Assembly (NCBI GenBank): GCA_902728285.1
Contig: CACVBU010001172.1
Span: 186,001 to 250,000 of the forward strand
DNA length: 64,000 nucleotides
Source: Clytia hemisphaerica
Taxonomy: Eukaryota; Cnidaria; Hydrozoa; Leptothecata; Clytiidae
Direction of reading: 5' to 3'
Positions 12,452 through 64,000 of the stretch are shown here, in pieces. The position numbers were made by a program, and so were the translations under genes. The notes under the pieces were generated by a model. It made no database searches, was not told the DNA's origin, and saw only the letters and a list, made by a program, of their open reading frames with translations. Every line of letters starts with the position of its first letter. Position 1 is the first letter of the stretch.

Positions 12452-12459
12452 AATCGGGC

Positions 12460-20403: not shown

Positions 20404-20466
20404 CGCTTCGTTCGTTCGTTCATTCGTTCGTTCGTTCGTTCGTTCGTTCGTTCGTTCTTTCATTCG
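20404..20466. repeat. (CGTT)n tetranucleotide microsatellite
   Basis: About 14 near-perfect CGTT units with two CATT interruptions. Confidence 0.85.
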
Positions 20467-34339: not shown

Positions 34340-37300
34340 ATGGCGGAGTTTGAAGTTTATCTTCAAGGTGGATCTCCTTGGGGTTTTCGTCTTCAAGGTG
34401 GAAAAGAATTTAGGTTACCTTTAAAAATATCAAAAGTAAGTTTTGTTTATGCTTACATTCTAATTTGAACGAAGCTGCAAATTTGTCTGTGATTTCTCAA
34501 AAATTATATCAACATGTTTTTGTCATTTTTTCCATTTTTTTTTGTTTTGTTTTTGTCTCTGTTGTCTGAATATATGTTACCATTCTTATAGGTTCTACTC
34601 AGTTTGATATTTTTTTAACTTCAGCTAGCTTTATGTGAAAGTTATTTGTTAAATATTGTAAAAAAATTACGTACATTTATAGTATAAATCCATGTCTCAC
34701 AACAAAAAGGGACAACCCTCTGAGCTGCCGATGTGATCACATGCCGACAGTCCAGGTGCTGTTGTCCAGTTTCAGAAAGTACCGTGAGTGGTCCTAAATA
34801 GACCTTTTTTCAAAGAGGCCACCCTGTTGAATAATTATGTAGTCCAGCAGAAAAACAATGATAAAACCATGCATAATTATTACAATATGCACGATACAGT
34901 AATTATGCATGGCTCTATCATTGTTTCTATGGCTGGACTACATTATTATTCAACAGGACGTCCTCTTTGAAAAAAGGTCTATCAGACAGCGCTGCCTAAA
35001 CCCGATGGGGTCTTTCAAAGATACAAACTAAAATAAAAACAAACCTCCTGTGACGCAACAAAGATTCCAAAGTGTCAACTAAACTGAGAGATTTGATACA
35101 TTGAACCACAATTTTAAGAAACCAAATAACAATAATTGCTTCTTATACAAAACATAATTTTTTATTACGATATGTACAACATCATAAATGACAACAACAG
35201 TAACAGTATCATAAAAAGTAATTATTTTTACAATTCGCACTTTTTAAAATTACATTAATTGACAATTGACATCTTCACATATAGAAATCTTGTTAGATGT
35301 TTTGTTTGGAGAGTTCTGGGAATAGTTTATCGTTCAACGTGGAGAGGGAATGTTTGTAAACATAGAATCTTTTTCATAACAGTTATTTGGGGGGTCGGAA
35401 TTAGGCAGGGCTGCCGGATTTAGGACCACCACTCACGGTACTCTCAAAATGCACTGGATATATTGTCTGGTGTAAGATACTTGGTCCAAGGAACACCAGA
35501 CATCAGAACACTTGTCCAGTGTCCAAAAAAAATTGTCTGGCGTAAAAATCTATCTATATATTTAAGTAACATTAGGCCCCAAGGCCCATTCTCGTTACAA
35601 AAGGTATTTTGTGTGTCCACAGCTTCTCATCAACCAGGGTCTTACAGGAGGCAGCTATCTAATTTAATACAAGATGGGTTGGTTTATCACGGAGTTATGT
35701 GTCTTCTGTATAGTGTTGCAGAAAATAGCAGAAAAGATGTTAGAGGTGCTCATGATGACTGATAATTTTTCTTAATTTTCTGATTATTATTTTGAGTTGG
35801 GAAGTCATAAAATTGTCAGAATTTTATCCAATTCAAAAAAAACTTTCCAATTTTTTATCGACATCGGGTGGGGGTGTCCAACTACATACCGTGAAGGGTA
35901 ACTTGGATCAGTGGAGGGAAACTTGAATAGCCATCAAATGACTGACCAATCAAAGCAGCAAAATTTCAAAACAATTGAACTACGCAGCTCCGTTCACAGC
36001 TCTACTTAACCATTCTTGTTTTGATTTTAACTTTGTATTTTAATGACTAGCTAGGTCATTCAAGTTACCCGACTTCAAGATATTACCGATAAAAAATAAG
36101 TATATGGATGAAAATCTTTTCAGCCAATTTCTTTCTGATTTCGCCCACAAACTCCACTGAAAGCATCATGCAATTTCACTTGCTTTCACCTTTGCACACA
36201 AATTCGCAACTTTAAAGGGGAACTAAACATTTTTTGAGGTCATGCTTTTTTTGTCTCCAAGAACTACACAACACAGTATAACTTCGAAAAAGTATAATTT
36301 CCACTCTCAATGTCTTTCCTATTTTGTATAAAACCTTCTTTAAAAAACTTATAATTTGTTTAAAATGAACCCCCACTTTACACATGTTTGTGACGTCATA
36401 TCGTTCATATTTTCTATGAATTTTGTGTATGTTCATCAACTTTAAAGCTTCATATTTCGTGAACAAGAAATAATAGGAAGATAGTAAAATCATTTTTGAT
36501 TTCAGGAAGGATTCAATGTTACATATACTAAATTTGGGGTTTTCAGCTTATTCCAATAAAAAGTTCAATTTTTTCAAGCGACTCTAAAATCATTTTCACT
36601 CGCTTGTTTTCGAAAGTTCAAACATAGTTTTACTCCGCTCAAAAATGGCATTTTAATGAATTCTGTCTCTTGGTTATACCATTTGTGGATAAAAAGTTAT
36701 TGCTATACTAAAAAAGTTAAAAGTTCTCTATCAACTAAAAGTAAGAGCTTTTCCAATTACTTTCTGAACGTGTTTACGTCAAACAGATGGCTCGACCTAT
36801 TCCCCTAACAAAATACGCATTGCTTTAAGAAGATTAGATTTTCTGTAAACATAAATGGCTATATCTTTTGATAGAGAAGTTTTCAGAGAAAAATATTTTC
36901 AGAGGTCATTCCTTTGAAGTATGTGATGTGATTTAGGTATTTTCAAAAAAATGTTTAGTTCCCCTTTAAAAGTATATACAGTTTTTAATTAGCTTTGATA
37001 AAAAAACTCTTTTTTCATTGACCAGCGCGCAGCCTTTTCCTTCAAAATGTTGTGTCTTTTTAACTTTTTTTATTAACAATATCAATGCGGGTATGAACAA
37101 ACTCAATGTTGGTTTAAAATAGACAAAAATTCAACGATGACGGGTGGGAAGGCGAAATCAATGTGATGGCGGACATGATTTGAGAAAATTGTGTTTTCGA
37201 AGAGTTAAAAGTTTGTTTTGAAATATTTTGGCTGATAAGAGCAAGGGGGAAGGGGTCTGAAGCTTATCGGCTCAATGCTGATAAAAGTTTTTTATCAAGG

Positions 37301-40300: not shown

Positions 40301-41047
40301 TATGCATATTGCACAATCAAAGTGTTGGTCAGCATTACAAACCAGAGTTCCAATAATCTTTAATACAACTGTACAGAAAAATATTAATATATTCAAAAGG
40401 TTCACTTAAAAAAAGTAAGAAGATAGATCTGAGAATATTTTAATTAAAAACTCCTAAAATACATTGATTATTTTTTATATTCATAGGTTGAACCAGGTGG
40501 GAAAGCAGCTATTGGCGGAATAAGAGTTGGTGATCATGTTGCTGAAATTAATGAAAATAGCACTGATGGCATGTACCATACTGAAGCACTTACGACTGTT
40601 AAAAGAGCACAATATTCACTATCCTTAGTTTTAAAGAGGTATGATGAAGCTAGCTACTTTCATGTAAATGATTTGTTTTTTGCGTTCATCAACAAAAATT
40701 ATAATGAGTGAACACTATCTAAGTTTGTAAAATGCCATATGTTTTTCAACCTTATCAACCCTACTCTGCTTTTAGGCCTGAAGAATCAGAAGATCCAACT
40801 GGACACACTATACAATCCGTCAGTCTTGCACCTGAAGATAATCAAACTAGAGTCTCTCTAACAATTGGAACCAAATCTGCACCATCATCCCCACGTAGCA
40901 ATAGGCGGACATACAATCGCTCATTTGATTCTACAGATGCAAGCACTGAGCCAAAGAGGAATGCAAATGTGCCAACAGGTCAAGCGTACATGCAAAAACT
41001 TGTTGGCAGTTTAAATGACCTTGATGATGATGTTGATGACAGAATGG
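34340..41047 (+). CDS. PDZ-domain protein of ALP/Enigma (PDZ-LIM) type, N-terminal exons
   Basis: Exons 34340-34435, 40487-40638 and 40776-41047 with phases 0, 2 and 1 at their ends; 173 residues so far. The start ATG (AAAATGG context) is at the first PDZ residue, as in PDLIM/ZASP proteins. Residues 1-83 form one PDZ domain: carboxylate-binding loop SPWGFRLQGGKEF, then KISKVEPGGKAAIGG, RVGDHVAEINENSTDGM, and the end strand YSLSLVLKR. The closest families by eye are ALP/Enigma/ZASP, which bind alpha-actinin at Z-discs and stress fibres. Residues 84-173 are Ser/Pro- and acid-rich without a known domain (SAPSSPRSNRRTYNRS; LNDLDDDVDD). The last exon ends in phase 1 and can join the acceptors at 51394 or 52203, so it may be the N terminus of the SoHo protein downstream. 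No LIM domain lies in the window. Confidence 0.8.
34778..35442. mobile_element. Inverted-repeat element carrying a nested MITE
   Basis: AGTACCGTGAGTGGTCCTAA is mirrored by TTAGGACCACCACTCACGGT (35420 side). A weaker match (GTCCAGT/ACTGGA) extends the repeats to about 34764 and 35457. The nested element is at 34799-34981. It lies in the first PDZ intron. Confidence 0.6.
34799..34981. mobile_element. Palindromic MITE with TAGACCTTTTTTCAAAGAGG ends
   Basis: Near-perfect 183-bp inverted repeat; the arms meet near 34890 at CAATATGCACGATACAG. Inserted beside the left end of the 34778 element. Confidence 0.8.
36211..36970. mobile_element. 760-bp element with TTTAAAGGGGAACTAAACAT ends
   Basis: TTTAAAGGGGAACTAAACAT and ATGTTTAGTTCCCCTTTAAA are exact inverted ends. 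The interior is AT-rich; the 93-codon minus frame in it has no recognisable domain. Probably a non-autonomous DNA transposon in the PDZ intron. Confidence 0.75.
36971..40486. other. PDZ intron, right part, no exon found
   Basis: AT-rich and poor in recognisable repeats. Nothing coding is supported on either strand. Confidence 0.45.
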
Positions 41048-42426
41048 GTATGAACATTACAATTTTTTTTGTCTAAATTTTGTGTGACTCTCCATGCGAT
41101 TTTAAGTACCTGAAAATTAGGTTGGTCATAAAACGTCCTTTTACTGGCTGGTTTTGGATTATTCAAAATTCTTTTGAAAAATTTGTTTTTAAGAAATAAA
41201 AAATGGTCTGTTGACATGAGCTGTTTTGATGTCATTCCTATTACCACACAATAGGACCGGTAAAGGAATTGCTCAAAACTGGTCAAAATTTTAGGAAGTG
41301 TGAAAGCTGATGTAATATGTGGTTGAAATTCGAAAGTTTCTTGCTACTAGACCACCCTTAATGATATAGCAAGACCAGCCCAATTGTTAGGCACTTGAAA
41401 TCACTTGGAGTCACATACAGTACTTCTTCTGTTTGGTGAAAGTCCCTTTAGGAAAACACTAGTTTATGACGTTTATGGTCACTAGAGCATAGTCTGGACA
41501 TTGGGTTGTTTGAGTTTCCCTTAGACTATTAGTTCAATTAGTAAGAGTTATTACCCATGGTAAACTTTCTGCAAAACATTGTTTGACCTTGTAAAGGTTT
41601 AAAAAGTTAAAAATAGTTTAAATCAGATTTATCAACTTTTGCAATATAGATACATTGTATTTGGCGGAAGAATAGAAGAAGTTAAATATTTGATTATTCG
41701 AGCTATTCATTTTGGGGAGAGATATTTAAATATTTCATCAACCATATGTAAAATCTAACTTTTTTTGAATTTTTCATCTGCCATTGTTTTTTGAGTTATT
41801 TTATCAATGAAGTTATGAGTGGCATGCTCTTTTTCATTTTTCACGTTTTCTTCTTCTTTTTCTTTTTTTCATGTTTCTTTTCACTCTTCCTACTTTGTTC
41901 AAAATATTAAATAATTATTTTAACTTTTCGTGATAAAGATAGAACACTATTTAGAGGGTGAAAAAGAAAAGAAAAGGTTCTTTCTAAAAAGAAGAATAAC
42001 ATGTTTTTTTCACACTTTTCATGATTCTTCATGTTTTCATTCATAAGTTTGATAGATTTGTTTTATGAAAATGTTCTAAAAAGTTTTGTGAAATTCCTTG
42101 AAATTTGGAGCAGTGTGGAGTATTTTGGTGAACTTTTTTTGAGAATTTGAAAGATTTTGTAACTTTCGATTTTGGAAGAAGTTTTTAAATGGAAGATTTC
42201 ATTGGTTTTATATGGTTGATTTGAAATTTTGTGAAAATGAGATTGTACCAAACGATCAATAAAGGTAATATAATTTCTTTGTTTTGTTTTGAAGTAGTGA
42301 CAACTCACAATGCCATTCACATGGCCCTTTTATTCCTGACTCAATTGAAAATTTCCATTGCACATTGAATCGTGAGCTCAAAGTTTTATGATGGAGAGAT
42401 AGAGATGAAACAAATTTTTAACCAAA

Positions 42427-42672
42427 TACACGTTTTATAAGAACAAACTTAATAGGTACATGAAGGCTTCGATGGCCGAAAAATTATGAAAAAGTTTATA
42501 ATAAAACATTTTAAGGCTTTGCGGACTTTAAAACACTATTCTCTTAGGAAATTGCATAAAAATACTCATAAAATGGTGAACATATCAGAGAACATTCTTA
42601 GGCTTAAAACTGAAAAGTTCGAGAACATCCACATGCTTTAAAATTTTTGGATGTTCTTATAAAAAAGCGTGT
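42427..42672. mobile_element. TACACG-family MITE
   Basis: TACACGTTTTATAAGAACAA and TTCTTATAAAAAAGCGTGT ends; internal GAAGGCTTCGATGGCC and ACATTTTAAGGCTTTG match the 30635 copy. Confidence 0.7.
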
Positions 42673-45433
42673 TTATGTCAGTATACGTCTCGAATTAACC
42701 TTATACCCATATCTTCATCATAACAGTAAGTTAATCAATTTGATAAGCAAAGTTCTTACCTTATTGATCTTTTCTCTACTAGGAGCATTGATATCAAGTC
42801 CTAAATTTTCAAGAGCTTTTCAGTCAGTTAAATACTTAGTAACGTAACCCAAATTATCGATGTGATTGAAGCTAAGAAAGAAATTTGAAACCTGCACTGT
42901 ATACAAATCAAGCTGTTGGCTAGAAATACCATGTATATCCCTTGAACTACAAAGCTTTACCAAACTTGACTAAGTGTTGTTGATATTACTCACGTCTCCT
43001 TCACGTCTCCTTGAGTTTCGAAGCTGAAACGAAAATAAATAATCAGTGTTTTATTTTGAAGTTGCTATTTTACATGAGTGATGCTTGCTTGTGACACCTA
43101 TTCGTATTGCATATTGTGGTGTTCATTTGAAAGGTGTTATGGTATAGATAGAGATAGAGAAATACAGAGTTTTAGATATTCGTTTTGAATTTAATGGTTA
43201 TAAGATAAAGTGTTTCTCTATTCAAAGTTTACCATAGCGTCAGAGGAAGCGTTTTGATATTAACAGGTGTCATCTGGTATCAGCAGCGATGGTCATCCAT
43301 GGTTTAACCAAGATGGCTTCCAACGCTTGTCACACATTGTCTCAATTTAACTTTACTCGCTCTTATATAAATAGAAACTGCAAAGCAAGTGAAGTAAAAT
43401 TGAAAGTTTTTTAACAAAGGTAGTAGACAAATAGCAGTGAGGCTTTTTTTTAAGATTTCATGCCATACATTCAAAATCTCTCTACCTGTCTTCCTGTGCT
43501 AAGGGTTCCTTATTGAGTCGAACATAATTGGCTTTCAAAGGGTATAGACTCACAGTGTTTCTTATTTGAATTCATTGTAGAATAAAAACTCTGTAAGCTT
43601 TTGAATTTGCCATTTTTGTTAATGCATTAAATGCTTGAAATGGTATTAGAAATGATACGTTATATATAGGATAGCCATAGATATTTACATATTAAAATAT
43701 TTTTTTTTTACTTCTTGACTGTTGAGTTGTATAAAATGGTTATGAGAGCAAGGTTCCTGTGTTTGTGCTTTTATGAGTTTTGGTGAGCAGTGTTATTGAT
43801 ATGGTATTTGGTGTCTTTGGTAATTGGTTAGCAGAATATTACAGTACGGGCTTTTTGAAGAGCTATTATGATCTACCTTGAAACTTGACGGTTTTTAGGT
43901 TTTATGATAACACGTTTCGAAAATCAATCAATTTTAAATTTGGACCCAATAACTTAATTTTTCTGACATCTCCTGAATCAATTTTCACTCGAAACAACAA
44001 TAAGTCAAAATCTTCAACCACAAAGGATTCCTAGATGTGATCTAGATTTCAAACTTGACGATTTGTGTATGGCTTTTGATAACGTTTTGGGAATCGATCA
44101 AATTTGAACACATGACTCGATTGGTCGAACTGATCGAACTTTAATTAAACGCTCGATGAAATTTGATCTCAAGTTCGATCAATTCGATTAGAAAATTGGT
44201 TTGATCAGCTCGACTAATAATGGTTGAGCCCAACATTAACTTATTGGCTTTAACAGTTTTAGTAAGTAGACGGAAACTCACCCTGAATCAATTTTTAACT
44301 ACAATTTGAAACCTCAGAATTGAAACAATCCTTGTTGGTCCTTCCTATTGACCTTTCATAAAGGTGTATATTATGATAATTCTTAAGAAATTCTTTTATG
44401 AAGCATCGTTATGGAATGTGCCTAACTTTTATAAATTTGCGTCTATTCAATCTTTGACAAGAGCATGAAAATAAAGTCAATCGAACTCTAAAATAAAGAC
44501 TGGAATGGATCTGTTTTTGGATAGAATTATCGTGCAACTCCAGTGACCATTTTGAGACTAAATAAGGACGTTCGAAAATATATTTAGAATGTCACGAAGA
44601 CTGAACACTATATTTCTTTCAAACAATTAAATCACCACTCAAACGGTTATTTATTTCATGTGGGGTGGAGACTACCTTTAGAGGTGACCCTTCCAATCTT
44701 GATTTTAGAGATCAGTGAAAAGAACCTAACAAACGAATGCTAACGAACTGAACCTTCAAAAGAATCATTTCTCTTTATAATTTCTAAATTTAGTGTTGAA
44801 TTTCTTTTCAAGGAGTATTTTATTTAGTATGTATTGGTTTCAATTCAATTTTCAATCGATGATGAGGTGTTTTGAAATAGATTTTTTGTCTGTTATAATT
44901 TTTTTCATGGTATAGGTGTTGTCTGTATGACTGACTGTCTAAATCAATTTTTTCTAAATTTAACAAAAATTTTGTGGCAATTCTTTTTGTACTTCTTATA
45001 AGTTCTTTGATTATTTTCCCATCGATATTTTGCCCTGGGGCTCGAGTTTAGCGTTTGGCTTATCAGCAGAAATTGAAATGTTAAAAGTTTTATAAAAGTT
45101 ATGAAATCTTTTTGGAAAGAAAAATCGAAATTCTAATGTTTTACATGTTTTTTTACATTTTCAAGCTTTTTATTGTTTCTGGATTTTCACTTTTAATAAC
45201 TCGACATTATCAAGTTCTGCTCTCTTTTTATAGTAAGCCTTTTGAAAAGTCTGGTGTAATACCGTTAATAAGATTCTTTTAGGAATGCAACATGAAGTGT
45301 GGAAATCGCATTAAAAGTCTTTTTCTCATGATACTTGTTTGATTTGCATGTTATTTTTTCTTTGTGAAAGTATCTTACAAGATTTTACTTGTTGTGGTGC
45401 GTGGCATTGGTTGCATGTTTGTGGGCTTTTGAA

Positions 45434-45598
45434 TACACTTTTTCTCTTTGATAAGAACAATTTTCTAAGAACAACGAGGCTCAAAATCGCCAAAAAATAA
45501 GAACAATTTAAGAACAATGCTGACCCTGGAATTACTCAATTTTAAACAATTTAGAGGTTAAAGTAGTAAAAATTGGGTATAAAGACTAAAAAAGTGTA
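45434..45598. mobile_element. TACAC-family MITE, short diverged copy
   Basis: TACACTTTTTCTCTTTGATA to CTAAAAAAGTGTA, with the interior CGAGGCTCAAAATCGCCAAA shared with the fragment near 20290. Confidence 0.5.
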
Positions 45599-46138
45599 TC
45601 TCATTCGGGCATATAGCTTTTTGGGATTCTTGCTACTTTTATCTTTATTTTATTTTGTGGATGAATTCTTTTCAAGAAAAGATTTTTGAACTTGAGGTCA
45701 AAAAACATATCCATGATAATGTCTCATGGTCTATGTCTATGTTTTGAATCTTTTGCATCTTATCGGACAACTGTATGACCATTTGGTGAATGTTGACTTG
45801 CTTTTTTTAGGATTTCTGAGTTGTTTTTAGGGGTGTTTTTATCTTCGTCGTAATCAAGATGAGCCTCAATTGGAACTTTTTTTCTTTTCCATACATTAAT
45901 TTATCAGGGTCAAGTGTGACTATGAATAAACTTTTCTGAGTAATTTTTATTCTTCTCCAAGCAGTTTCTTATTACAAGACCACCACCACAAAAATATATA
46001 TCCTTTTTACTTTTAAATACGATGAAGAAACGTTTCTCTCTAAATAATGATTCAAAATCAAATTATTATTCTTCGCTTTACTCACACCTTTTTAGATTTC
46101 GTAAAGAAGTCTTAGCTTTATTTTTGGTATTTAGGCTA

Positions 46139-46251
46139 TTACCCGTTTTTTTATAAGAACAAACTATGTAAGAACATTTTTAGGCTTAAAACTCAAAAAG
46201 TTAAGAACGTCCGAAGGATTCCAAAATTTTGGATATTCTTATAAAAACGTT
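46139..46251. mobile_element. TACACG-family MITE, internally deleted copy
   Basis: ACCCGTTTTTTTATAAGAAC to GATATTCTTATAAAAACGTT, only about 110 bp; interior AAACTCAAAAAGTTAAGAAC. Confidence 0.55.
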
Positions 46252-47984
46252 AGTTATGCTTTGTTATGTAGTTAAGAGTTTTCTGCAAACTCTCAACTAC
46301 TCAAATTGTTCTTTGTCACTTTCAATTATTTGACGTGTGGAGGAGTTCATCTTCCTAAAATCAGAAACCCTTCCTGGTGGCCTTCACCCTCCCTCACGCG
46401 TTTATCAATTTGCGATCGACAAAATCTTTTAAACTGGAATTCATTTAAGTTTTTGCTGAATTGTTATTTTTAAGACAAAACTTTGTCGTAGAAATGCGAC
46501 TTTTTCTGTCTGAGGAGCGGTCTATACTTCAGTGTGAATTCTAATTCAAATTTTCATCAACAACTTTTTGAGTTTTTTTTTTCAAGCTTTCTTGTATTAC
46601 ACAGATATTAAGTTGCTGCTTTTGTTTCTTGAATACAAATTAATGAAAAAAATGATTCTTAAAAAAAGAAATTCCTCATTTTGAAATTACAGAGCGGGAT
46701 GGTTGTTGTAATGAAACTCTACCATGATGCCCAAGCGGGTTCCTAGTATAGTTTTTTCGTATGAAAATTTACAATATGTTGTCAGACTCATAAAACAAGA
46801 AAACGAGCACATTGGATGAGATGGGGATTACACCACACTTTTACTACGCTCAAGGAACTCTTATTTAAGTTTTTGGCTACGTTAGAAAGTGACTTTTGGG
46901 GCTTGATTTAAAAAGAGCGTCTCCCACTTTGATTTCCCTCCTAATAGTGAACGGTGCTTTTGAACGGTTTTAGTACTAAACATTGTAAATAAATTTTGAA
47001 AAAAATTGTATCAATGCTCAGTGGGCTTTAAATTTGCAACATCCAAAATCCAAAAAGAACGACTCAGCGACACACTAAAGTCCTGCTGTCATCCACTAAA
47101 CTGATCTTTTTTCCTCAACCCCATTTTAACGAGATTTGATGCTGCTTATATTCTATAGTTGTCAACTTTTCATAAAAATTAAAAATGGGTTTTGATTGCT
47201 GAGCTTGAGTAACTGTTGCAATGATTATCTGTAATGGTTTGTATTTTTGTCGATGAAGTGTCTTTCGTATCCAAAAGTGTAATGACAGGCATAAATTGAA
47301 ATTGCCTCTTCTTGTTAGATTTACAGATGCAAGAAAAATATAAATGCGTCTTTTTTCTTGTTTAGATTTTTTGCTATTCGCTCTATCTATAAACAGACAA
47401 AAGTCATAATGTATAATTTGTCACAGTGTCTATTTTTGCATGGACATCGTTTTGACAGCCATGAGACGTCCCAATGTAGAATTGAGTCATAAATACCACT
47501 TCTTATAATGTTAAACACGTTTAAAAAAGATGATTCGTGTTAAGGCATGTTTGGTTTAGAAGTGTATCATTTGCTAAATTGTTATATTTGGTTTAGTTCG
47601 TATGCTTTCTCTTATAAGAATTGGGTAAACTTTAGTTGAGATTCGGCTATTTTTCAAGATCTTGGCCTTACTCAATTGTTCTTAAACCAGTTCTTATTTT
47701 TTGTGCATTTTATTGCTTTGATATCTTATAATTTTACTACCTCCAACATTAATATGCTTAAAATCAATCCATTCTTGGCTTGAAAGTTGTTCTTAAATTG
47801 TTCTTATTTTTAGCATTACTTGGAGTCTCATCAAAATCTTGAGATTACTCTAATATGAAAAAAAAAAGAATGTAGTTCGTTGATCGTTGTTGACACTGTT
47901 TCGATTCGTTTTTGTATTTGTTGTTTTGATTTTCAAATAGTAGCTGCTGTAAGGTTTCATTTTAAAGTTTTGTGTGCGTCTAGG

Positions 47985-48234
47985 ACATAGATTTATAAAG
48001 CTCCGAAGGGCTAGATGTCGTGCTTTGGCTGAATAGTGTGCCGAAGTTAGGCAGGAAATTCTACCTAGGTCACCTGACACTACAATAGAATTTCAGCGCT
48101 TGACCAATAAGAAGGTTCACGGGTTTTCGAATACATACAATAGCAGCTATATTTTTTGCGATATTCACTTTTTTTGCTTGGAAGAGCTTAAAGCACGGCA
48201 TCTAGCCCTTCGGGCTCTACAGAAATCTGTAGTA
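47985..48234. mobile_element. MITE with GCCCGAAGGGCTAGATGCCG arms
   Basis: AGCTCCGAAGGGCTAGATGT with CGTGCTTT on the left is mirrored by AAAGCACGGCATCTAGCCCT on the right. The mirrored part extends outward into ATAGATTT/AAATCTGT. Confidence 0.65.
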
Positions 48235-48978
48235 TAGGTTGGATGATAATCTCAACTTCATCTTGTTCTCGGAAGTCTGTAAGAAGATGCAAATCATCGG
48301 CATTTTAGTTTCGAGTCGTAAAGAAGGGACTATAGAGACTGTATCCCTTCTGACCCCCCTGTTTTATGGGTTTATATTTTGTCGACTGAGCTTATATTTT
48401 GATTGATAGACTTTTTGCCAATTCCAAAATCTTCTTTTTTTCCCTTAACGAAACCAGTATTTCAAAAATAATGCGCTTATAGTATATTTTTCTCAATTCC
48501 TTTTCCTTAAAAATAATTTTCCTCTCTTGTCTTGTTGACTTTTATAATATTTTTGAGGGTCGAGCCGTCGTAGATATCAAATCGAAAATCTTATTACGCT
48601 TTATTTTCTAATCTCAAATTCTGTAGATGAAAAATGAAGAGTTTTTTTCTATTAATTTTTCATGGGTCATTTCCAAATTCGATTTGTCTTTATTTTGAAA
48701 GTTCATGCAGTGAGTTGTGTTTATAGCTTTCTGAAAAATCATCACTCTATGAGAGCACATTTTGTCGTTTGGGAGTATAATTTCCGTTAGTTAATTAGTT
48801 TATTTTTTATCCAAGTTAACGAAACAAGAGGAGTTAATTTATCGTCTATCTTGAATTGGAGTTCCATTTTTGTTAGAATTTGGACTCACCTAATTTCGAC
48901 TTTTGTTCGGTTTTTGTTTGGAAATGTGCTTTTTTTAGCATGGTTGGAATTCCTTCTACTGTACGTTCTATTCAAAAT

Positions 48979-49010
48979 CATCTATCTGTCTATCTGTCTA
49001 TCTGTCTGTA
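48979..49010. repeat. (TCTATCTG)n microsatellite
   Basis: About four units of TCTGTCTA in the long intron. Confidence 0.7.
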
Positions 49011-51335
49011 ACCTTTCCCTCTTTGAGCCTCTATGCATGGTCTATGCGCGTTCGACTATTCTCTAGTAGAGCATTTGGATTACGTGACTCACTTTGCCTT
49101 TACTATATTTTGCACAATAAAGTTTACCTTGGCAACCGAAACTCTGCACCTCGCAATTAATGATTTCTTACTTAAACCATATGTCATTTTAGTGTAGAGG
49201 AATTTTAAGTAGTTTGTGGTTACTATTGTGCAAACACTTGAGATTGTAACCCATGGTATTATTTAGGGAAGTACTTTTCAAGGTTGTCTAGAGCAGGCAT
49301 ACACAGGATATAGTGTCCAAGCTTTTATACATCTTGGACTCATTTTATCTGCAATCCTTTTTTCGAATCAATCTTGTTTTTGTTTTTAGTATTTCTTGAA
49401 TTACGTTGATGCTAATTTGTATAGGCGTGACTCTTTAAAAGGATTTATCCAAATTCCAAAAAGCCTACACAACAGTCGACAACAATATTTTTGCTAACAC
49501 CAGTTGAAAGTTGAAAAACAAACACATACTTGTGTACATTATTAGAACAAAGTATAAAAGGCTACGAGGCCAAAAGTTTTAAGAACACTTCATTTTTAAA
49601 ACGTTCTTATGGCTTTGCGGACTAATGTTACATTATTAACATTAGGGAACTATACCAAAATGCTGGAAATAAGAACACTTCATAAACATGAAAATTAAGA
49701 ACATCTGAATCATTTACAAGATTGGTGACGTTCTTATAGCATGGAATTTTCCATAATTGAAAGAGAATTGTATTCCCTGTTATCAAAAGAGTTGTAGAGA
49801 CTTTGGCATTGTATGGCTTTTGTTTGGTTATTCTCTACCTAGATTGGGTGTCTATCAGGTAGAATTTCAAATGCTGATTTATTTGGTTTGGAACAGCTCA
49901 CTCTTTCAACTGGTATTTTCGTCATCTTTGCATTTTTTGGACACTTGACAGTAATGGGTGTGTAACTGTAAAATAGCTTTATTTTGATGGTGACGAAATT
50001 ATTTTTAGCTTTTCTCCCTTTTTAACCCGTTCTTATGAACCCGACTGATGTCGGCTGGGAAGCCTTATTTGATTCGAAGTTTTTTTAAGAACGCTCGTTC
50101 CAAAGATAAATTTGCAAAAAGGTCGCATAACAAAAACGAATTTTGTCAAAAATTTTGTCCATACAGCATTACACTTCAAGTTTCTCGGCCTAGTTTTCTA
50201 ACATCTTCTAAGATTAATACTAAAGGCAATCAGTTTTAAATTGTTTAATTGCCCCCAGCATTTATAATGAGATGTAATTAAATCATTTAGTAGAATTCCA
50301 TTTCGTTATTGAAACGAACAAAATGATGATCGCTATAGAGTTTATTACGAAAGAAGTATTTTTGTATTAATTGCAATTCAGTGATTTTGCATGCACACTT
50401 ACTTGATGGAATTTGCTCTTGTTGGTGAATTTGCCTTTGTTTGATAAAGTGTCCACAACTCTAACTGGCCAGGGATCATTGTCCGATTAGGGAAGGGATT
50501 TTATGGAGAATGATTTATAATAAAGGATTGGTAACTGAGAATTTGCTTTTGTTGAAGGATTTTGGTGTCTGCAACTCTGACTAGCCAGGGATCTTTGTCG
50601 GATTAGAGAAGGGGTTTTATAGAGATGGATTTATATGGGATTGCTATTTTGAATTTCAAACTATCTAAAATTCCATTCGTATTAATTTCAATTCAGTGAT
50701 TCTACATGCATTCTACTCTTTTGTGCGTTCTTGGGACAAGAAAGGTCATAGATGATTAATTCGAATTCGAATAATATCTCAAATACATTTACTTTTTTGC
50801 AATGTTCGAAATAGTTTGATTTTTTGAAAGTTCAGTGTAAAAGACGGAAATGATGAAAACTTAGGTACCAGATTCAGCTCGTACAGTGACTATAGATTGT
50901 AGCGTTTTTAATGTAGTGGTGTAGCTTTTGATCAAGCTGACTTAAGTCTTTCTCGCCGCCATTTTTCTTTTGGAATGGCCTCTCGTTGAAATTTTTTCCT
51001 GTCTCATTTTAAGAACAAAATTATTTATATATTGGAAGAAATAAATACAAATTAATGAAAGATTGCAAATAGAGCTTGGTTATGGCAGCAAATTAGTACA
51101 TCGATCACCTTGGTTTGGTGACGAATGTTAATTGAATCTCATTACATTGTCTAAAGTGAACACTAAAGACAGCGCTTGGTAATAATAGGACCACGCCCAT
51201 TTTTCCATACAAAGTTGAAAGAGGACATTCCACTTAGATTGTGATATCGGGCAGGGGTTTAAAATCATCATATCGACAATACAAAAATTTAACATAGAAA
51301 GTACAACAAAAAGAAGTCGTTAACGATATTCAAAG

Positions 51336-54300
51336 ATGAAAGACAAATCACACACCACCATAACGGTCGGAATGACATCACCTTTATCTCCAGGCTTTGC
51401 ATCGCCACTAGCCTTAGATCCGTTCACGGACGACAGGCTAAACCTTTACACGAACAATAACAACAGTTTCAACGATTTAAACATGAACGACTATGACTAT
51501 AACGCGAACACTTTTCCACGGTCAACGGCCACTAAAAAGCCGAAAGTCGACGAATCGAAAGCCAGACTTCCGGTCTTTAAATTGTTACAAGTGAACAGAC
51601 GGAAAGCCGAAATTATTGCTGCGATGCCGGATGGTTAGTAAATGGTGTTCGATTAACGGAGCTGTTTTCTTAACTTCAGAATGATTGCACATAATTTGAG
51701 TTGTCAGCTATTTTTATAGATAAATAGGCAGATATTTAAAAGCAATTTCTTAGGTAACTTATGAAAAGTGGCCTTATACTTAAGTGAAGTCTCTATAGCT
51801 CGAACACTCACGGGGAACGCACATTTGTTCGAGTTATGGAAAATTCGAGTTATGGAGATTTTTTTGTTAAGCTTTCTTGCCTGAAGGAACCCGGAACCAT
51901 GTTCGAGTTAAGGATGCATTCGAATTATAAAGTTTCGAGTTAAAGAGACTCAACTGAATGATAACAAACGGAAATCAGTATCAATGAAAATGTTTGGGAT
52001 TGGTACCCCTAAGATGGTCCTTGACCGCACCACACCCGCACGAGGAAACTTAAAAAACTAAGAAAAAAGTAGTATTTTTATTGGCAGTTTCGTTAGTCAG
52101 ATAAGTTGTTTCCATCCGCAAATTTTTTTCATTTCAAAAAAGTTTACATGAGGAATGAATGCCACAGAATTAATCAAATTTTCTCTTTCTTTGTTCTTTC
52201 AGACGACTTACCACCTCAAGATAGGGAACGCAGTAAAACACTACCGAAATCGTACGGCAAAAATCGCGACAAGAATGGCGATACGTCCAAAAGTTTACCA
52301 CGAAACAGTTCGACTTCGGTAAGAAATAGGTTTTTCCAAGTTTTTTTTTTTGCATGTTTTTCAGATTTTTTCAAAATAGTGTACAATCATGGTCATAGGA
52401 TTTGATGGACGTCACCCAAAGATTTTTGAAGCAGGAAATCGTTTTTTAGTGTTTTAACTTACTCTCGGGCCCTAGCAACTATTCTTGCTAACAAAAATTA
52501 CCCGGCTACTTTGACAAAACTTTGAATTCCTGCAATATTCTTTTTCCCATAGAGTGAACCACCGAATAAAGCACCTCACTGGTACAAACAAATGTATAAA
52601 GAAATGCACACAAGTATGGAAGGTAAGCGGGACATACTGAGTAATACAGTGGAGTCACTATCCCTCGACGAACACGCACGGGGAACGCAAAATTGTCCAA
52701 GTTAGGGAAATGTTGTGAGTTATGGAGTAAGGTTCTCAACTGAAGGGACTAGAAAATTTGTTCGAGGTTAGGAGACTTTCAAGTTATAAAGGTAAAAGAG
52801 ACTCCGCTGAATTTTTATAGGTCATTTTAAGGTCCTTATAAAGGACTGAATGTGCTCTAATAACGACTTCCAATTGGTCAGATGAAAAATCCTAAAAATA
52901 TTCTAACTAATATGAACAAGAAAATGGCTCTGGTTATGAATGACTTATTTAAACAGTGAAATTTCTGACCCCAATTACATTTTCAACCATATCTAGGATT
53001 TTATAGAAAAAAGAATATGGTTTTCATTTGACCATAGAGTCGAAGCCTTCTTTGAAATCTTTCTCGTACCCGTTTTTCAAAGTTACATGTTAATATAAAT
53101 TATGGTTTTATAAACGCTGCTTTCCATTTTTCATATAAAGGCGAATCTCATCTATCGAAACTATTATCATCCGACGCCAAACGCGGTGCTTTTCGTAAAT
53201 ACGACGGTGCAACGCAATCAGGTGCTAATTATCGGTCAATGTCGCCTGAAGAACGTCGTACAGCTTTCGAAGATAACTCACTCTCGTCTTCCGACGCTCC
53301 AAGGAGGTTGCAAGGCGGCGGCAGGTATGCAAATCATTCGATTTCGTTCGTTCAGTAAAAACAGTCATTTTAAGACTTTTTGCTACTGTGTTGATAAGCG
53401 GTAATATTTTGTAGGGTGATAGACCAGTGGTCTTGGGCGTTAGAGAAACAGGGGTTACGGTTCAAATCCTGCTTTTTCCATGTTTGGTTCAGTTCATAGA
53501 TAGCCAAGCAACCAGAGCGTTAATCTTGTTAGCGAAATTGAAAGACTAAGTCCAAGATCAACTGGTATATCTACGAAAAATATGGACTCTATCTGAAAAT
53601 GATTTACGGTCAAGCTGATCCAAGTTTTCTTTTAAAATTTTTTTTGAAATTAATTCTCCACCACTTGGTTAAGAGACTTCCCTTAGGATATTCAGAGAAA
53701 ACAACTCGTTCACTATGTTTGAAGGATAATTTTATTAGAACACAATAGCATACATAAATGATTTGATACGTTTAACACGTAATATTTTGACCCTCGCACT
53801 GAGGGTCATCGTCAGACTGAGAAAAGAAAAAGAAACTCAAACTGCTCAATGCACTACTCGTTCATGTTCTATTCAACAGGGCGGCTGCTACACATCACCA
53901 TCGTAAATCACTACCCAACATTCACGCATCAAACTTCAACTTCATGCAACCGTCAAATTATCATACACCGACACCGTCAGCGACTCCACCGTCTTCCTCG
54001 ACAACGTTAAAGACGACGTCGTCAAATCCTCCTTCAAACGGCGTCACTATGCGCGTCAACGGTAAGATAATTCCTTATATCGTTTTTACGCAAACATCTA
54101 TGAATTTTTTAAATACCTTATCGGCCCCTTACGCCGGCCCTAATTGACGTAAGCCCAAAATTAGGCTTGACGTAATAAGGGCCGGCGTTAAATTAGGGCC
54201 GGCGTAAAAAGGGCCGATAAGGTACATAATACTGACATGGCCAGTATGGGTTTCTTCGTAGGGCACATGAAAATCGTGAATTGTGTTGACTTTCTTTTAT

Positions 54301-57300
54301 TTGAACTCATTGAAATAGCTACTTTAAATCAAAGATGATTTTTTTTGTCATTCCAAACTTCCTTTAATTCGATATCTGGTTTGAAGATCGATTTAAGGAG
54401 AAGGTCGAGGAGTGTAAAACTAGACTTTATAGATTACTGGCATCCACTAACGGATTCGTGTTCCTTATTTTACCTGCCTGCGGTTTTGTAGAAATCTGCG
54501 ATTCAGACTTTAGATATTGTGAATAATGATACCTATCGTTAAGATTCATTTGCAGCTTTTATTCTCATTCCTCATTATGCTTTTATCAAAGCAAAGAGAA
54601 AATAACTTGTGGTGAATATTTTTTCTACTACTGGCGGTCTGATACTGTTCCAATATGCATGCATTTTGTAATGCGATATGATGATGTAATCAATTTTAAT
54701 TGTTTTGAATATGAAAATGGTAACTTTTCCAGACGATATGTTTCACGATAACAAGCTGCAAGGATTTCATGTGCCTTTGATATGAATTTTTGTTTTGTTT
54801 TGTTGATGAGACGGAGTGTAGACTTTTATTTGGTGTTAGTAGAAACCATGCCAGTGTTATTGGTCTTTTTTCTTGAGGGTGGTTTCCACATGTGCTGAAC
54901 TGACTTTTAGTTATCATTGCAATTTGAATCAATTTTAGACTCTTAGGAACTTCAAATCTTGAATACAGTTGACGCTCTCTAATTCGATTTTCAAGGGGAA
55001 TGGGATTTTCTTCGAATAATGGAGCGTATCGAATTGTAGAGCGTTGTCTATGAGAGTTTCTTGTTGACTGTGAATTTCAACATTATTAAATAATGGAGCG
55101 TATCGAATAATAGAATGTCAAATTGAAGAGCATTAACAGGAGTTTTACAACCGGTATTTCAAGGATTATTGTCCTCCAGTTTGGCAATTCATCAGTGTTG
55201 GTGTTATTATGAGAATCTGTATAGTTTTGCCATTTGAATCTTCCATGGTGGAAAAGGAGGATGCTTTTCGGCTGTGTTTGGTTAGTGGTGGTACAAGTGA
55301 CTCTTTTAATCCAGGTAAAAAGCTCTGGGATTGCTCTCAACCAATAAATTTCAAACCGAAGGCAAGAGAGGAATCTTCAACCTTCCCTGCACAAGCAAAA
55401 GTGATACGAATTGAATCTTTCACTTTCTTTGTTTTTGGGCTTTTTTATTTATTAGAATTTTAGTAGTAAATGTTTACTTCCAATCCAGAGTGTATGTATG
55501 GAAACTATGCTGGCATAGTGGCTTCAAATCCTACATAAGAGATTCGACTCTATTCTGACCTGATAAGGATATTCTAAATCAATTTGTTTTTTGGTTTGAT
55601 TGGTTGGAATTTTCAATTAAATTTTTGAAAGCTCGAAAAAATCTACTAGAATATCCCTAAAATTTTATTAAAGTTTTATTTATTATAAAGCAGATTATGT
55701 ACACTATATACTTACTTGCAGTCTTGACATGTTGAACTTAAATTATTACTGCATTGATACATAGGTAATTATACCATCGCACAATACATTAATTATTATA
55801 TGTTTAATACGTACGCACTTTTGCACCTGTTTACACCCTTTTTATTTAGGTCGAAAAACAGCAATCGTCAAGCAAAGATCTGAAGACGTCCTATGTAAAT
55901 GCATTCGATATTTCGATTAATAACTAAAACTAACTAACCTAAACGTCTGTCAAAAACACATAACAATATACCGGCTTTTCTAGGAAATATAGGTCACCTT
56001 TTGGGTCTCTTCAAAGTCAGTTTTACTTAGAGTTTTTGAACCTGAATCCATTCTTCGCCACGGGAATTCAATTATTACAAGAAGAAAACACACACTATGG
56101 TCTATCTCACTAAAAAGATCATTTACTGGAACGACAAAATTGGTTCTTACCGAGTTAAACCACGGTGCTCTATTTCATCCAGTTGCATTATTATCCCTTA
56201 GGAGCTCCTAGAAAAGCTTATAATTAACAAAGAAAATGAACTAACATACTACAATACAAAATACAATACAACATAACATGGTAAATAAAATCAAGTAACA
56301 ATTTCATTCCACTCCCAAACGGAAAATAATTATCTCAACTAATCAACTCCGGAAAAAAATCTATTTCCCAACTCTCCTTCTTTTCTTATCCACACAAGTC
56401 AACAACTTTGCACACTTTCACTAAAATATATTCATTATATCGCTATTAATTTTCGACCTATTAATTTTGTAACCACAATTTTTATAATGATTCTGTGTTC
56501 GTGATTTTTACTAAAATATTTTGATTGTAAGATAATGTTATTCTTATTGCACGAAACTTTAGAGTTGCACGTTATAAGATAGAGTTACCAAAATCTCGAT
56601 GCTTCATAAGTCTCGATGATCTCTATCTTACGCATCGATGCTTAGTTGTTTTGTGTAGCAGATAATGTTCTAGTCGTGTTAAAGTGTCAAAAATGAATGA
56701 CATTTTTAGTAATGCTTTGACTGTTTTGAATGTTTATTTGATGCTCTAATACGACTTTGAACGGAGCCCATTTGCTAGAATTTTACTTCTATTCATGATA
56801 TGCACCATTGCAATGTCTTCTGACGGACCCAATAGCTGATTGGTTGTAATTGACGTAAAATCAGTCAATAAGTCACTTTCAACCAATCAGCTGTTGGGTC
56901 TGTGGAAGTCATTGCAGTGGTGCATATCATGAATACGAATTCCTTTCTCAAAAAAGTCAATCATTCTGTATCGGAACATTTGAACATCTTACCACCCACA
57001 TTTTAAGTAAATGAATCGTTTCGATGTTTTTTTCGACAGCTAAACCAAGTTCGACGTCAACCGCGGCAACCGCTGAAAATCGGAAATCCATCAACTCGGA
57101 TTGGTACAAAGCTTTACAGAAAGGTGGAGAGATTCCTGAAGCTGGACTGGCAACTGGTATCAAAACTTCTAAATCGGCTTCAAACATTTCGCTAGGTGAG
57201 TTTCTTATCAAATATTGTACCCCAAAGTTATGATGAAATTTCTGAAATTCAATTAAACTCTTTATTTCGAAAAGGCACAAAAGGAACGCTTAAATTACTT

Positions 57301-60300
57301 CGAATCTCGGAGACTATGTTAACAAATGTTTGAAGCTAGACCAGATAACTTGTTCAAATTAAGGAGATATTCGAGCAATAAAAGAATTACGTAGACTCAT
57401 AACATAACGTAACATTCTCCCCAAGCTTTAATATACACATGAAAAAATATGTTTCATACTTTTTTTCTAAAAATCATCTTTTTGACTCACACTAGTTCCC
57501 AATTCCTTGTTTTTGAATCTTCGTTTACAATTTTATTTTTCAATTACAAGTAGCATACTGCGTTTTCAACGTATTTATACAAACAAAATTTCTGAAATCG
57601 GATAAACTCAACACAAAATTTACTTGTCATTATTTTTCGATTCAAAGATTGAAAATTATTCCTCCCATGCACTAAATAACATTTTCATAATACATGTGTT
57701 TCCTGTCAAGTTTTAAAGAAAAAAATTAAAATTGAAAAATTATGAAACATTATAAAATATTTTATCAATAATTTTGACAATTTTTCATTTTTCTCAAGTC
57801 ATGGTTTGGTCTCAGGCGTTTCAAAAATTTTAAATGAAATTATTACTCTCTTTGCTTAAAATGTTAAGGTAGAACTTGCTGTAGATATTGCGTGTAGTAT
57901 TTTAACCCTTTCCGTGTCAATGTCGGCATATGCCAACATGAGCATTTTTGATTTCCTTGCCATTGTCGGGATTTGCCGACATGCGAAATTTCGACCTATT
58001 TGCTGAAAATTTATCATTTTTTACAAGATTTTTCCATTTGATGGTTTGAAATGAAAAAATGAATAGTTAAAAACTTTTCTATGTTGAAAAATAACTATTC
58101 TACAATGTTCAACTCAAAATTATAGTCCTTGGCTGATAATTCTTATATTATTCAGAAAATGAAGTGAAAATCGCTACTTTTTTCCCATGTCGGCATATGC
58201 CGACATTGGCAAATAGGTCGAGGGTGTAAAAAAATGAGCCGGCAAATAGGTCGAACCTTAAAAAATACGCACGGCAGTTAAAGGGTTAAACTAGAAAATG
58301 AAAGGAACATACAGAACCGGAATGTTATGATTATGTTGGGTGTCTTTCATAGCCTTCTCTGTTACTGATAGACTAGTGTATAAGTCATTTTGTATCGCAA
58401 AGCCAGGTAGCTTTGCATTGAATTTTGCTCTTATTGAAAGTAGAACGATAATTAGTTACTTCTTATAGAATTTTTATGAACTTCAACCAGAAAGAGTCAG
58501 ATTTTAAGCCATCTTGTTATTTTAGACTCTAGCCATGAAGTAATGAAAACCTTTTTTCTTTAATGTCCGCCGACTTGGTTTAAAATACAAAATGGAAAAC
58601 ATTAACCCGTAAAATTTCTCACTTTCGCATCAAGTAGTTTTTTTCTATTTAGCTTAGACTAGTAGCTTGATTTTCAAAGCAAAGGAAACGGTAGCTTGAA
58701 AATTTTTATTTCATTGATTAATTAAAAGTTGACTGAGTACTAAGGATTTTTGGGATTTTCGCTGCTTTCAAGCCGATATGAGGTTTCTAAGATCAGCTTT
58801 CAAATGGAAGAGCAATCGTGATCAAAGTAAGTTTTTCAGCTTTTATTAAATTTTTTATGAGAGGTGGAATATCAAATAAAAACTTAAATTATTCAGTAAG
58901 TTTATCCTTCATAAAATTGTAAATATATAATTCTCATTTTTCGTTTACAAATCAACCATTCAACTTTTAAAAATATCTTTCCGAGGCCGATTTTGTCCTG
59001 AACGTTATAGTTAAACAAGTTATTTCTAAATAGAACTCTTGTTGATTGATCTGTTCTTTGCTGAGAATCCCTGCAGCTATAACATCCTAGAGACGAAGAT
59101 GTAAAATGTTTTTTTGTAGTGTTACTTGAGTTATTTTCAAAGTAGAACCGTTCAAACAGTGACAGTTAAATTGGTTACACGTTTTTTTTTAAATAAGAAC
59201 ATCCAAAATTTTTGAAGCCTTCGGGTGTTCTTAAACATGTTCTTATTTCGACTATTTTGTGAGCATCTTTGTCCATTTTCCTAAGAAATTGGGTGTTTTA
59301 AAGTCAAAAGCCTTAGTAAAATGTTCTTAACTTGATCTTAACATTTTAGCCATTAAAATTTTGGCCTTAAAGTTTGTTCTTATAAATATAAAAAAACGTG
59401 TATCAGCTTCTGAGAAAACAGAGTTTATTCACCAAGTACCAATTCAGTTAAAACCACGTCTATCGAACGTACTATAATGTTACATGGACTTTGAGCCCTT
59501 GAGACACCGTTGCATTCTAGCTGGGAAGAATATATATGATACACCAATGACCAAACCATGATTTGAAATATCAGAAAAAAATTATTTTTTATAACGGGTT
59601 AGATACAAAAGTTGTTGGATAAAAGATTTCTTAGTCCTTTGAACATCGAATTAGAGGAGAGAGACTCCACTGTACGCAAAAATAAAACAAATAAAACGAA
59701 AACAAATGTCTATGAACATGAAGAACAGTTTTTACCGAAGATTCAACATCACTGCAACTTCAATCTTCGTCAGCATCAAAACTGGTAACGTGAAAACCTT
59801 CACGCTCACTCTTCCTAGCCTGGTAAGATAACTCTCTTTTATCTTTTCTTCCATTCCTTGTTTTGATATAGGTCGCTCGCAGACAGACGGACCGCCCAAG
59901 AAAACTGGCGGTATCTCAGGACACATGCAGGTAATTTTCTTGATACAGACAGGTTTTGTTTTAATTCCTTTTCACATTGTTTTATAAGAACCAACAATTT
60001 GGCTGATGCTTAAAAGGATTGTTTAGATATTCTTGTGAGCCTGCTTTCAGTCTCAAATTATTCATAATTTCGTTGTTAGACTTTTGCCAAATTTGAACCT
60101 TTTTTACGTAAAACTTTTGTTCTCATAAGTGAGCTTGGGTTTTTACAATGATTCAATGTTGAGCAAAGCTTGTCTTTCTATCAAAGAAAAATGTTACATC
60201 TTCAGAAAAATGACACTAAATTCATGATATAAGTGGTTTGCATAAACAATTTGGGGCTGTTTCTCGCATGCTTGTAGCCTTGCTGATTTTCTAAAATTCG

Positions 60301-63300: not shown

Positions 63301-64000
63301 ACATCATTGATCTTTACTATTGATTTTGTCGTATATATATTTTTTGGATTGATTTTCTAGTTTTGGGTTCAGTTGTTAAACTTTTTCTTTTGGAAAGGTA
63401 ATTTTTGGCCTTCATTAACAGCTCTATATTGCTTTCTTCATGTTTTTTGGGGTATCAATCAAAAAAGTAAACTGATTTTGTTCATGAAAGGTTCAAATAT
63501 ATAATGATGACAAGAGTTTCACAAGAAGATCAATTCTTCATCGAATTTTATTTGAAACCTTCACAAGTCAATGCTTTCTATTACAGTTGTAAAGTGGTAA
63601 TTCATTTTCCTTCCTTTTTTTGGCTTTCCCTGGTAAACTCTGGAGAATGGGTTCAACTTATTTGCGCATTGAAAAAGTTGTGATGAGATCAAGTCTACTT
63701 TCGTAAAGAAGGGTTTATTTCATCAAATGACTTTTCTAGTCTACAATTTATCATTAAAATGACCTTTACAAAGTAATGACTAAAATTTGTTGTGGTCCGG
63801 AGAAAATGAAAGCTACCCCTTGTTTATGAAAGTAACCCAAATCGACGATATTTCGTATTCTTTTGATATACTCGAAAGAAAAAAAAAGATTCAACCCTTG
63901 TCTTCTGAACCATTATGTAAGACTGAAATATTTTTCCTTCTTTTGATTCTAGGCCAGCCAATACCATCACGAGAAGAGTAATTCCGACACATACGTTGCC
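51336..64000 (+). CDS. SoHo (sorbin homology) adaptor protein, CAP/vinexin/ponsin-like, open at the right edge
   Basis: Eight exons: 51336-51633, 52203-52318, 52553-52622, 53141-53324, 53880-54061, 57040-57195, 59872-59930 and 63953-64000+. Every junction is GT/AG and every phase matches (1,0,1,2,1,1,0), giving 371 residues within the window. Residues about 147-160 (HWYKQMYKEMHTSM) match the core of the SoHo domain, which binds flotillin or vinculin partners in SORBS proteins. A second, related motif at 304-316 (DWYKALQKGGEIP) may mark a second WYK unit. The rest is low-complexity Ser/Pro/Thr- and Asn-rich linker (NNNNSFNDLNMNDYDYN; RKSLPNIHASNFNF). SH3 domains, expected C-terminal in this family, would lie beyond the window. 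The ATG at 51336 has an in-frame TAA 15 bp upstream, so it can be a true start. An internal acceptor (TTTATCTCCAG|GC, exon start 51394) is phase-compatible with the last PDZ exon. Confidence 0.7.
51783..51957. mobile_element. pogo-like MITE (GAAGTCTCTATAGCTCGAAC), copy 2
   Basis: AGTGAAGTCTCTATAGCTCG to TTCGAGTTAAAGAGACTCAA, with CACGGGGAACGCA and TCGAGTTATGGA inside. It lies in the first SoHo intron. Confidence 0.6.
52647..52810. mobile_element. pogo-like MITE (CAGTGGAGTCACTATCCCTC), copy 3
   Basis: CAGTGGAGTCACT to AAAGAGACTCCGCTG, with CACGGGGAACGCAAAATTGT inside as in copy 2. It starts 25 bp past the donor of the SoHo exon. Confidence 0.65.
53411..53480 (+). mobile_element. tRNA-like SINE head
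   Basis: GTAGGGTGATAGACCAGTGG is an A-box half and TTACGGTTCAAATCCTGC a T-arm with B box. No convincing anticodon arm, so read as a SINE. Intronic. Confidence 0.5.
54114..54224. mobile_element. Palindromic MITE with TACCTTATCGGCCC ends
   Basis: 111-bp inverted repeat: TACCTTATCGGCCCCTTACG is mirrored by GGGCCGATAAGGTA. Internal GGGCCGGCGT words are repeated. Situated 52 bp past the splice donor at 54061. Confidence 0.75.
54225..56790. other. SoHo gene intron, no further exon seen
   Basis: Contains the second pogo-like element at 54966-55139 and otherwise AT-rich sequence. Frames of up to 84 codons here have no splice or domain support. Confidence 0.4.
54966..55139. mobile_element. pogo-like MITE (CAGTTGACGCTCTCTAATTC), copy 2
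   Basis: The left end is identical to the 29715 copy; the right end TCAAATTGAAGAGCATTAAC is diverged. GGAGCGTATCGAAT repeats twice inside. Confidence 0.65.
56791..56934. mobile_element. Palindromic 145-bp MITE, copy 3
   Basis: ATTCATGATATGCACCATTG to GTGGTGCATATCATGAAT, with TTGGTTGTAATTGACGTAAA near the fold. It lies in the intron before SoHo exon six. Confidence 0.8.
57902..58289. mobile_element. piggyBac-like MITE with TTAACCCTTT ends, copy 3
   Basis: TTAACCCTTTCCGTGTC to CACGGCAGTTAAAGGGTTAA, TTAA at both ends. The interior differs from copies 1 and 2 and holds GTCGGCATATGCCGAC-type palindromes and three GACCTATTTGC/GCAAATAGGTCG words. Confidence 0.75.
59176..59402. mobile_element. TACACG-family MITE, complete copy
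   Basis: TACACGTTTTTTTTTAAATA to TATAAATATAAAAAAACGTG(TA). Interior as in the 22712 copy, same orientation. Confidence 0.75.
60897..61127. mobile_element. MITE with ATATCGCCATTGATAAATCA ends
   Basis: ATATCGCCATTGATAAATCA is mirrored by TGATTTGTCAACGGCGATAT. Inner AAAATTTGAGATTGGCCC words recur. Confidence 0.65.
61320..61788. mobile_element. Element with AATAACTGGTT ends and TATTGACCG words
   Basis: CAATAATAACTGGTT at the left is mirrored by AACCAGTTAATAACA. Next to each end is a TCAATA/TATTGACCG word. GCAGCCGAAGTACAGACCGA and TCGGTCTGTACTTCGG-like parts form an inner stem. Confidence 0.5.
62375..62647. mobile_element. TACACG-family MITE, divergent subfamily
   Basis: TACACGCTTTTTTTTTTATA to TTTTATAAAAAAAAAAGCGTGTA-type right end. 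Interior words are GATATTCTTA and CATCATGGATATTCTTA, where other copies have GTTCTTA. Confidence 0.75.
62766..62863. mobile_element. 98-bp MITE with CCCAGCTG ends and AACGTT words
   Basis: CCCAGCTGACACACAACGTT is mirrored by AACGTTGTGTGCCAGCTGGG. The whole element is a run of AACGTT and TGGACGTTG words. A decayed relative may lie near 29560-29610 (ATGGACGTTGAAACGACGTT). Confidence 0.75.

Follow-up and report, generated by a model that had tools for sequence, protein, structure and literature searches.

An ALP/Enigma-type PDZ unit upstream of a SORBS gene in Clytia hemisphaerica: composite locus or two neighbours

We analysed a 64,000-nucleotide stretch of the Clytia hemisphaerica genome (positions 186001-250000 of the 351-kb contig C808 in a 417-Mb assembly), here called the window, in which two units follow one another on the plus strand: a PDZ unit at 34340-41047 and, from 51336 onwards, a gene of the SORBS family of adhesion scaffolds that runs out of the window. 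Positions are window coordinates unless another contig is named, and the second unit was followed into an extra 100 kb of the contig downstream, which overlaps the final 500 bases of the window exactly. Both units, their order, the absence of any LIM match from the contig and open, in-frame joins between the units are plain observations; whether they belong to one composite gene or to two neighbours is the question weighed below.

The PDZ exons p1, p2 and p3 (Table 1) form an open, stop-free chain whose end reads ATG G directly before the donor GTATGA, in phase 1. The chain holds a PDZ domain (Pfam E 5.6e-12), and the solved structures closest to it are those of ZASP (8.4e-20), LDB3 (9.4e-20), PDLIM7 (1.6e-19) and PDLIM5 (4.1e-19). 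Judged by these matches, by the PWGFRLQGG of an N-terminal PDZ and by splice phases 0 and 2 held in common with a paralogue on contig C869, the unit is N-terminal and of ALP/Enigma (PDLIM/ZASP) type, a family of muscle scaffolds. An earlier note, made from the sequence of the window, had called both the PDZ type and the phase-1 exit of the final PDZ exon correctly. The unit differs from known ALP/Enigma genes in having no LIM match on its contig, no Pfam family in p3 and a SORBS gene adjoining; a ZM or AM motif was not detected in p3, though no search with profiles specific to these motifs was made. None of the 96 LIM profile matches in the genome lies on C808; this count is a lower bound, and an intron-split LIM could escape it. 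A pattern search of 263,500 bases of this contig found no uninterrupted LIM.

The PDZ exon of the paralogue (C869:318942-319100) aligns to p2 with a score of 92; of the eight best PDZ loci three reached 65-67 and five stayed below 55. Its splice phases are identical to those of p2, its best match is ZASP/LDB3 (1.7e-9), and LIM exons lie 25-33 kb downstream of it on the same strand. These PDZ and LIM exons are likely to make up the Enigma gene of the animal, and if they are read so, the PDZ of the window is likely a second ALP/Enigma PDZ, one without a LIM match on its contig. The LIM exons were set aside as proof of an Enigma gene, as their best solved matches are to paxillin (7.1e-23 and 3.8e-18 for two stretches) versus 1.3e-8 and 8.5e-13 for PDLIM5. 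On the same contig, 14 partial LIM matches (profile positions 13-40) are spaced 121-123 bases apart at 344283-346071, with one gap of two periods; they form a tandem array from a piece of LIM exon, directly 5' of the more complete LIM match at 346233.

The downstream unit can be followed well beyond the window. Its chain is extended by exons 63953-64359, 64818-64932, 65168-65518 and 77480-77575 to 678 residues without a stop, and exons 79441-79665 and 83216-83384 hold a third SH3 domain and the stop at 83384; no link from 77575 to 79441 was found, and the phases of these two positions do not fit directly. Pfam scans covered 49002-63998 in one of the three plus frames and 63501-83500 in all three, and in addition 41500-51332 in three minus-strand frames and six open reading frame pieces from 1-34339. 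SH3 stretches were matched in each of the three positions, although for the second SH3_1 was the only profile whose cut-off was passed. SH3 domains 1 and 2 match SORBS1 at 9.3e-29 (next protein GRB2, 8e-21), and the third matches vinexin at 2e-23 and SORBS1 at 4.7e-23 (next protein GRB2, 9e-14). Because three SORBS-type C-terminal SH3 domains lie beyond the window on the same contig, we regard the identification as SORBS, by similarity, as secure despite a sub-threshold SoHo motif. The three domains are shared with SORBS1/CAP-ponsin, SORBS2/ArgBP2 and SORBS3/vinexin, from which the gene differs in that weak SoHo and in a possible PDZ N-terminus.

The SoHo-like motif HWYKQMYKEMH reaches 10.6 bits over 12 residues with Pfam Sorb (E 0.46), where the cut-off is 27, and exons 2-4 on their own gave no Sorb match in Pfam. 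It sits in the exon at 52553-52622; the earlier note was mistaken in taking the exon at 51336 for the first SoHo exon. The candidate WYKALQKGGEIPEAGL was rejected as a second SoHo, being without Pfam support. A second WYK motif, SDWYKALQKGGEIPEAGL, at 57040-57195 on the plus strand likewise has no Pfam match; it may be a motif conserved in SORBS or else a second SoHo that has degenerated. An NCBIfam scan of the SORBS part gave no match. In a SORBS intron, at about 73280-73480, a repetitive sequence matches the Gp5_trimer_C profile of phages in three stretches (1.3e-7) and is probably a simple repeat.

The same note had given the 51336 exon an ATG with an upstream in-frame TAA, and the TAA indeed lies at 51321. 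The first 19 codons of this exon score 0.43 bits per codon, which 1 of the 2803 overlapping open windows between the units attains, and the AG directly before 51336 would make a poor acceptor (-0.5). Therefore, the stretch 5' of the internal acceptor described next is probably coding and the exon probably a genuine first exon. That internal site, TTTATCTCCAG followed by GC, has its AG at 51392-51393 and requires a phase-1 donor, in frame and in phase 1 just as had been claimed for it. With an acceptor matrix trained on nine acceptors of the locus, AG 51393 being outside the training set, it scores 7.4 bits, ranks 47th of 3366 among plus-strand AGs and is the sole one of 69 exon-internal AGs to score that high. 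Left out of training, the nine real acceptors score 4.3-9.9 bits, and 52203 itself only 5.3, so the cryptic site is not to be dismissed as weak: exon start 51394 has a credible acceptor. Against chance it is mildly unusual. Among the 14 AGs listed in the exon, 8 have the phase of the cryptic site; an equal site appeared in 17.5% of 5000 synonymous shuffles and an in-phase one in 3.9%; and half-overlapping 298-nt windows of 12700-51000 contained an equal site in 50 of 258 cases, or in 18 of 258 for a given phase.

A join between the units does not depend on this site. Of the 10 later acceptors, 4 fit the frame of the p3 donor, so a phase match is nothing special, and since the true acceptor 52203, the nearest of the four, is also in phase, the cryptic site is not needed. 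Reading from p3 into 52203 and on through 77575 gives 752 residues without a stop, and into 51394 gives 832, also without a stop. The phase argument for a PDZ-SORBS join is weak. Of the phase-matched PDZ-SoHo link that the earlier note proposed, the shared strand and the possibility of stop-free, in-frame joins stand, and the special standing of the phase match does not; its suggestion that the 51336 exon might serve as either a first or an internal exon survives as a probable coding first exon for which in-frame internal use is possible, by way of a site that is unnecessary.

The 10.3-kb interval between the units held no Pfam family in the three plus frames (41050-51336), and the minus strand (41500-51332, three frames) gave two Pfam matches, both sub-threshold. 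Its top exon candidate scores 12.3, versus 36-70 for four SORBS exons that served as controls inside the training set; the exon search also gave candidate terminal exons at 50450 and 41443. By AT skew (-0.096), tile 40001-50000 is richer in T on the plus strand than any other of the 25 ten-kb tiles. Three introns in presumed minus-strand genes have skews of +0.018, +0.093 and +0.054, and a stretch within a gene read as ADAR has +0.006. This suggests, circumstantially, that the interval is transcribed on the plus strand.

We slightly favour a composite locus with two promoters over two neighbouring genes, and hold it to be evenly poised between right and wrong. An upstream promoter would yield a PDZ N-terminus spliced from 41047 to 52203, with the 51336 exon skipped, and a promoter near 51.3 kb would start from ATG 51336 and yield a SORBS that lacks the PDZ; since each N-terminal module ends in phase 1, the two would be exchangeable, with acceptor 51394 perhaps used for a minor variant. 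In the PDZ form alpha-actinin might be bound through the PDZ and its extension, which would carry the SORBS SH3 domains there as well. That the two neighbours yield a single polypeptide is our inference. If the units are instead separate neighbours, which we rate as a serious contender falling somewhat short of even, a short LIM-less PDZ protein would end in an unrecognised terminal exon at 41-51 kb, and an ordinary SORBS gene would begin at 51336; the neighbourhood would be conserved, perhaps by shared regulation, with no fused product. Having an ATG of its own and a stop upstream, the 51336 exon makes a good first exon, the two candidate terminal exons would be available, and human PDLIM and SORBS genes adjoin as separate genes in the literature. 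The lack of a Pfam domain in the plus frames of the interval, the lack of a candidate exon clearly above noise and the apparent plus-strand transcription speak for one gene rather than two.

Several points, however, weigh against the composite locus. The phase agreement is near chance and worth little. The codon model gives p1 -0.19 and p2 -0.01 per codon, poor coding scores, and p2, if left out of training, would reach about 11, no better than the top candidates of the interval, so an additional exon of the PDZ unit might go unnoticed there; nor does it take more than a short exon to end the gene. The AT skews of the ten plus-strand introns of the locus (-0.125 to +0.032), of PDZ intron 1 (-0.017) and of presumed intergenic stretches (-0.051 and +0.046) overlap, which makes the skew, examined after the fact, a weak guide. 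The human order, which we take to be SORBS then PDLIM on the same strand in all three loci, is the reverse of the order here. ALP/Enigma PDZ proteins without LIM are also known as such, in Drosophila Zasp66 and Zasp67 (PMC9751615), although these carry a ZM domain, which was not detected here, no dedicated ZM profile having been run.

Two further arrangements appear improbable. A main join from p3 to a point inside the 51336 exon, making it both first and internal exon, has a good acceptor score, the right phase and the 832 open residues to recommend it; yet the 57 bases before the site are coding-like, so that the site may be a by-product of coding sequence, the in-phase shuffles (3.9%) equal it, and 52203 suffices. 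We think such a main join quite improbable. A SORBS gene nested in, or lying between the exons of, a PDZ-LIM gene with LIM exons further downstream would agree with ALP/Enigma genes normally having LIM domains (PMC3305314), but with none of the 96 LIM matches, lower bound though the list is, on the 351 kb of C808, this idea was set very low and seems to us highly improbable.

In human, too, members of these two families are neighbours: PDLIM1 with SORBS1, PDLIM2 with SORBS3 and PDLIM3 with SORBS2, the human PDLIMs differing in that they carry LIM. PDLIM1 and SORBS1 follow one another in a table covering human 10q23.33-24.1 (PMC2967069), a human locus goes by the name SORBS3/PDLIM2/C8orf58/BIN3 (PMC6301214), a pig gene list gives SORBS3 and PDLIM2 in sequence (PMC6504931), and PDLIM3 and SORBS2 lie together at human 4q35 (PMC6637155, PMC4378009), with a promoter termed bidirectional (PMC6637155), whereas we take the two genes to lie on the same strand. 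The three human pairs probably arose from one by genome duplication, and the PDZ-SORBS linkage is probably older than the cnidarian-bilaterian split, because an independent chance adjacency here and in vertebrates appears unlikely, which is a judgement and not a computation. Judged by titles and the starts of abstracts, no publication on a PDZ-SoHo fusion or on PDLIM-SORBS microsynteny was recognised among those listed, and we know of no PDLIM-SORBS fusion.

ALP, a PDZ with one LIM, has been placed in the bilaterian stem, derived from an Enigma-like ancestor, and single Enigma proteins are described from sponge, placozoan, ctenophore and sea anemone (PMC9751615, PMC3305314). That a non-bilaterian has a further ALP/Enigma PDZ, LIM-less and adjoining SORBS, together with the three human pairs, suggests an older root of the ALP-SORBS partnership. 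We consider it unlikely, though less so than the main join at 51394, that a composite PDZ and SORBS gene was ancestral to the vertebrate pairs, ALP having begun before Bilateria as a LIM-less PDZ on SORBS that later separated and gained LIM. According to a review, a ZASP/LDB3 orthologue was not detected in the striated muscle of the Clytia medusa, which is part of the case for an independent origin of striated muscle (PMC5253434). The second ALP/Enigma PDZ would be a Z-disc candidate that this survey may not have covered, and if the ancestral composite were true, the medusa protein could take the Z-disc place not filled by a ZASP/LDB3 orthologue.

Table 1. Features of the PDZ and SORBS units (window coordinates)
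Feature	Position	Strand	Basis or remark
PDZ exon p1, starts ATG, MAEFEVYLQGGSPWGFRLQGG...	34340..34435	+	donor phase 0; Pfam and PDB matches
PDZ exon p2	40487..40638	+	phase 0 in, phase 2 out; same splice phases in C869 paralogue
PDZ exon p3, post-PDZ extension	40776..41047	+	donor GTATGA, phase 1
Interval between units, intron of composite gene or intergenic	41048..51323	+	no Pfam family; no strong exon candidate; T-rich
SORBS first exon with ATG	51336..51633	+	donor phase 1; coding score
Cryptic acceptor with AG at 51392-51393, candidate exon start at 51394	51392..51394	+	phase-matched to p3
SORBS exon 2, acceptor in phase with p3 (favoured join)	52203..52318	+	splice sites, open join
SORBS exon 3, SoHo-like HWYKQMYKEMH	52553..52622	+	sub-threshold Pfam Sorb
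SORBS exon 4	53141..53324	+	splice sites, open chain
SORBS exon 5	53880..54061	+	splice sites, open chain
SORBS exon 6, second WYK motif	57040..57195	+	splice sites, open chain
SORBS exon 7	59872..59930	+	splice sites, open chain
SORBS exon 8	63953..64000, leaves window, ends 64359	+	open chain; SH3 exons follow on C808

Elsewhere in the window, the minus strand at 9332-12544 carries a LINE-type frame of 1070 codons with no internal stop (RVT_1 4.6e-31) and endonuclease-like stretches below cut-offs, possibly a young element. A multi-pass membrane protein could be encoded by several hydrophobic open frames at 4588-8860 on the minus strand, for which Pfam gave nothing above threshold. On the plus strand, 15900-17247 contains two open frames that are rich in Thr, Ser and Pro and have fair splice sites; they may belong to a gene of mucin or glue type (Pfam New_glue at 5.8e-4, sub-threshold). 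Tandem repeats lie at 24769-25315 (272-bp unit x2, 98%), 30020-30240 (29-bp unit x7.6, 96%) and 20407-20466 (TTCG x15), and the noncoding stretches 46150-46260, 59190-59390 and 62380-62640 look alike by eye, being rich in AAGAAC / GTTCTTATAA, perhaps from a short mobile element. Rfam and tRNA scans of the window gave no match. Searches with the PDZ unit and the SORBS part in viral contigs, and with the PDZ unit in prokaryote genome contigs, found no relative, which says little for collections of that kind. Downstream of SORBS on the plus strand of C808, alpha-tubulin-like exons (87000-87222) and ADAR-like exons (126840-133886) were seen by eye.

A mitochondrial contig of the assembly holds cob and a partial cox1, with AGR at conserved arginines, ATA fitting isoleucine and TGA within frame. 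AGR for arginine, ATA for isoleucine and TGA in frame belong to the mold/coelenterate code and to no bilaterian code, so that these readings fit a non-bilaterian mitochondrial code. The partial cox1 at the contig end, beside cob, is reminiscent of the linear mitochondrial DNA of hydrozoans.

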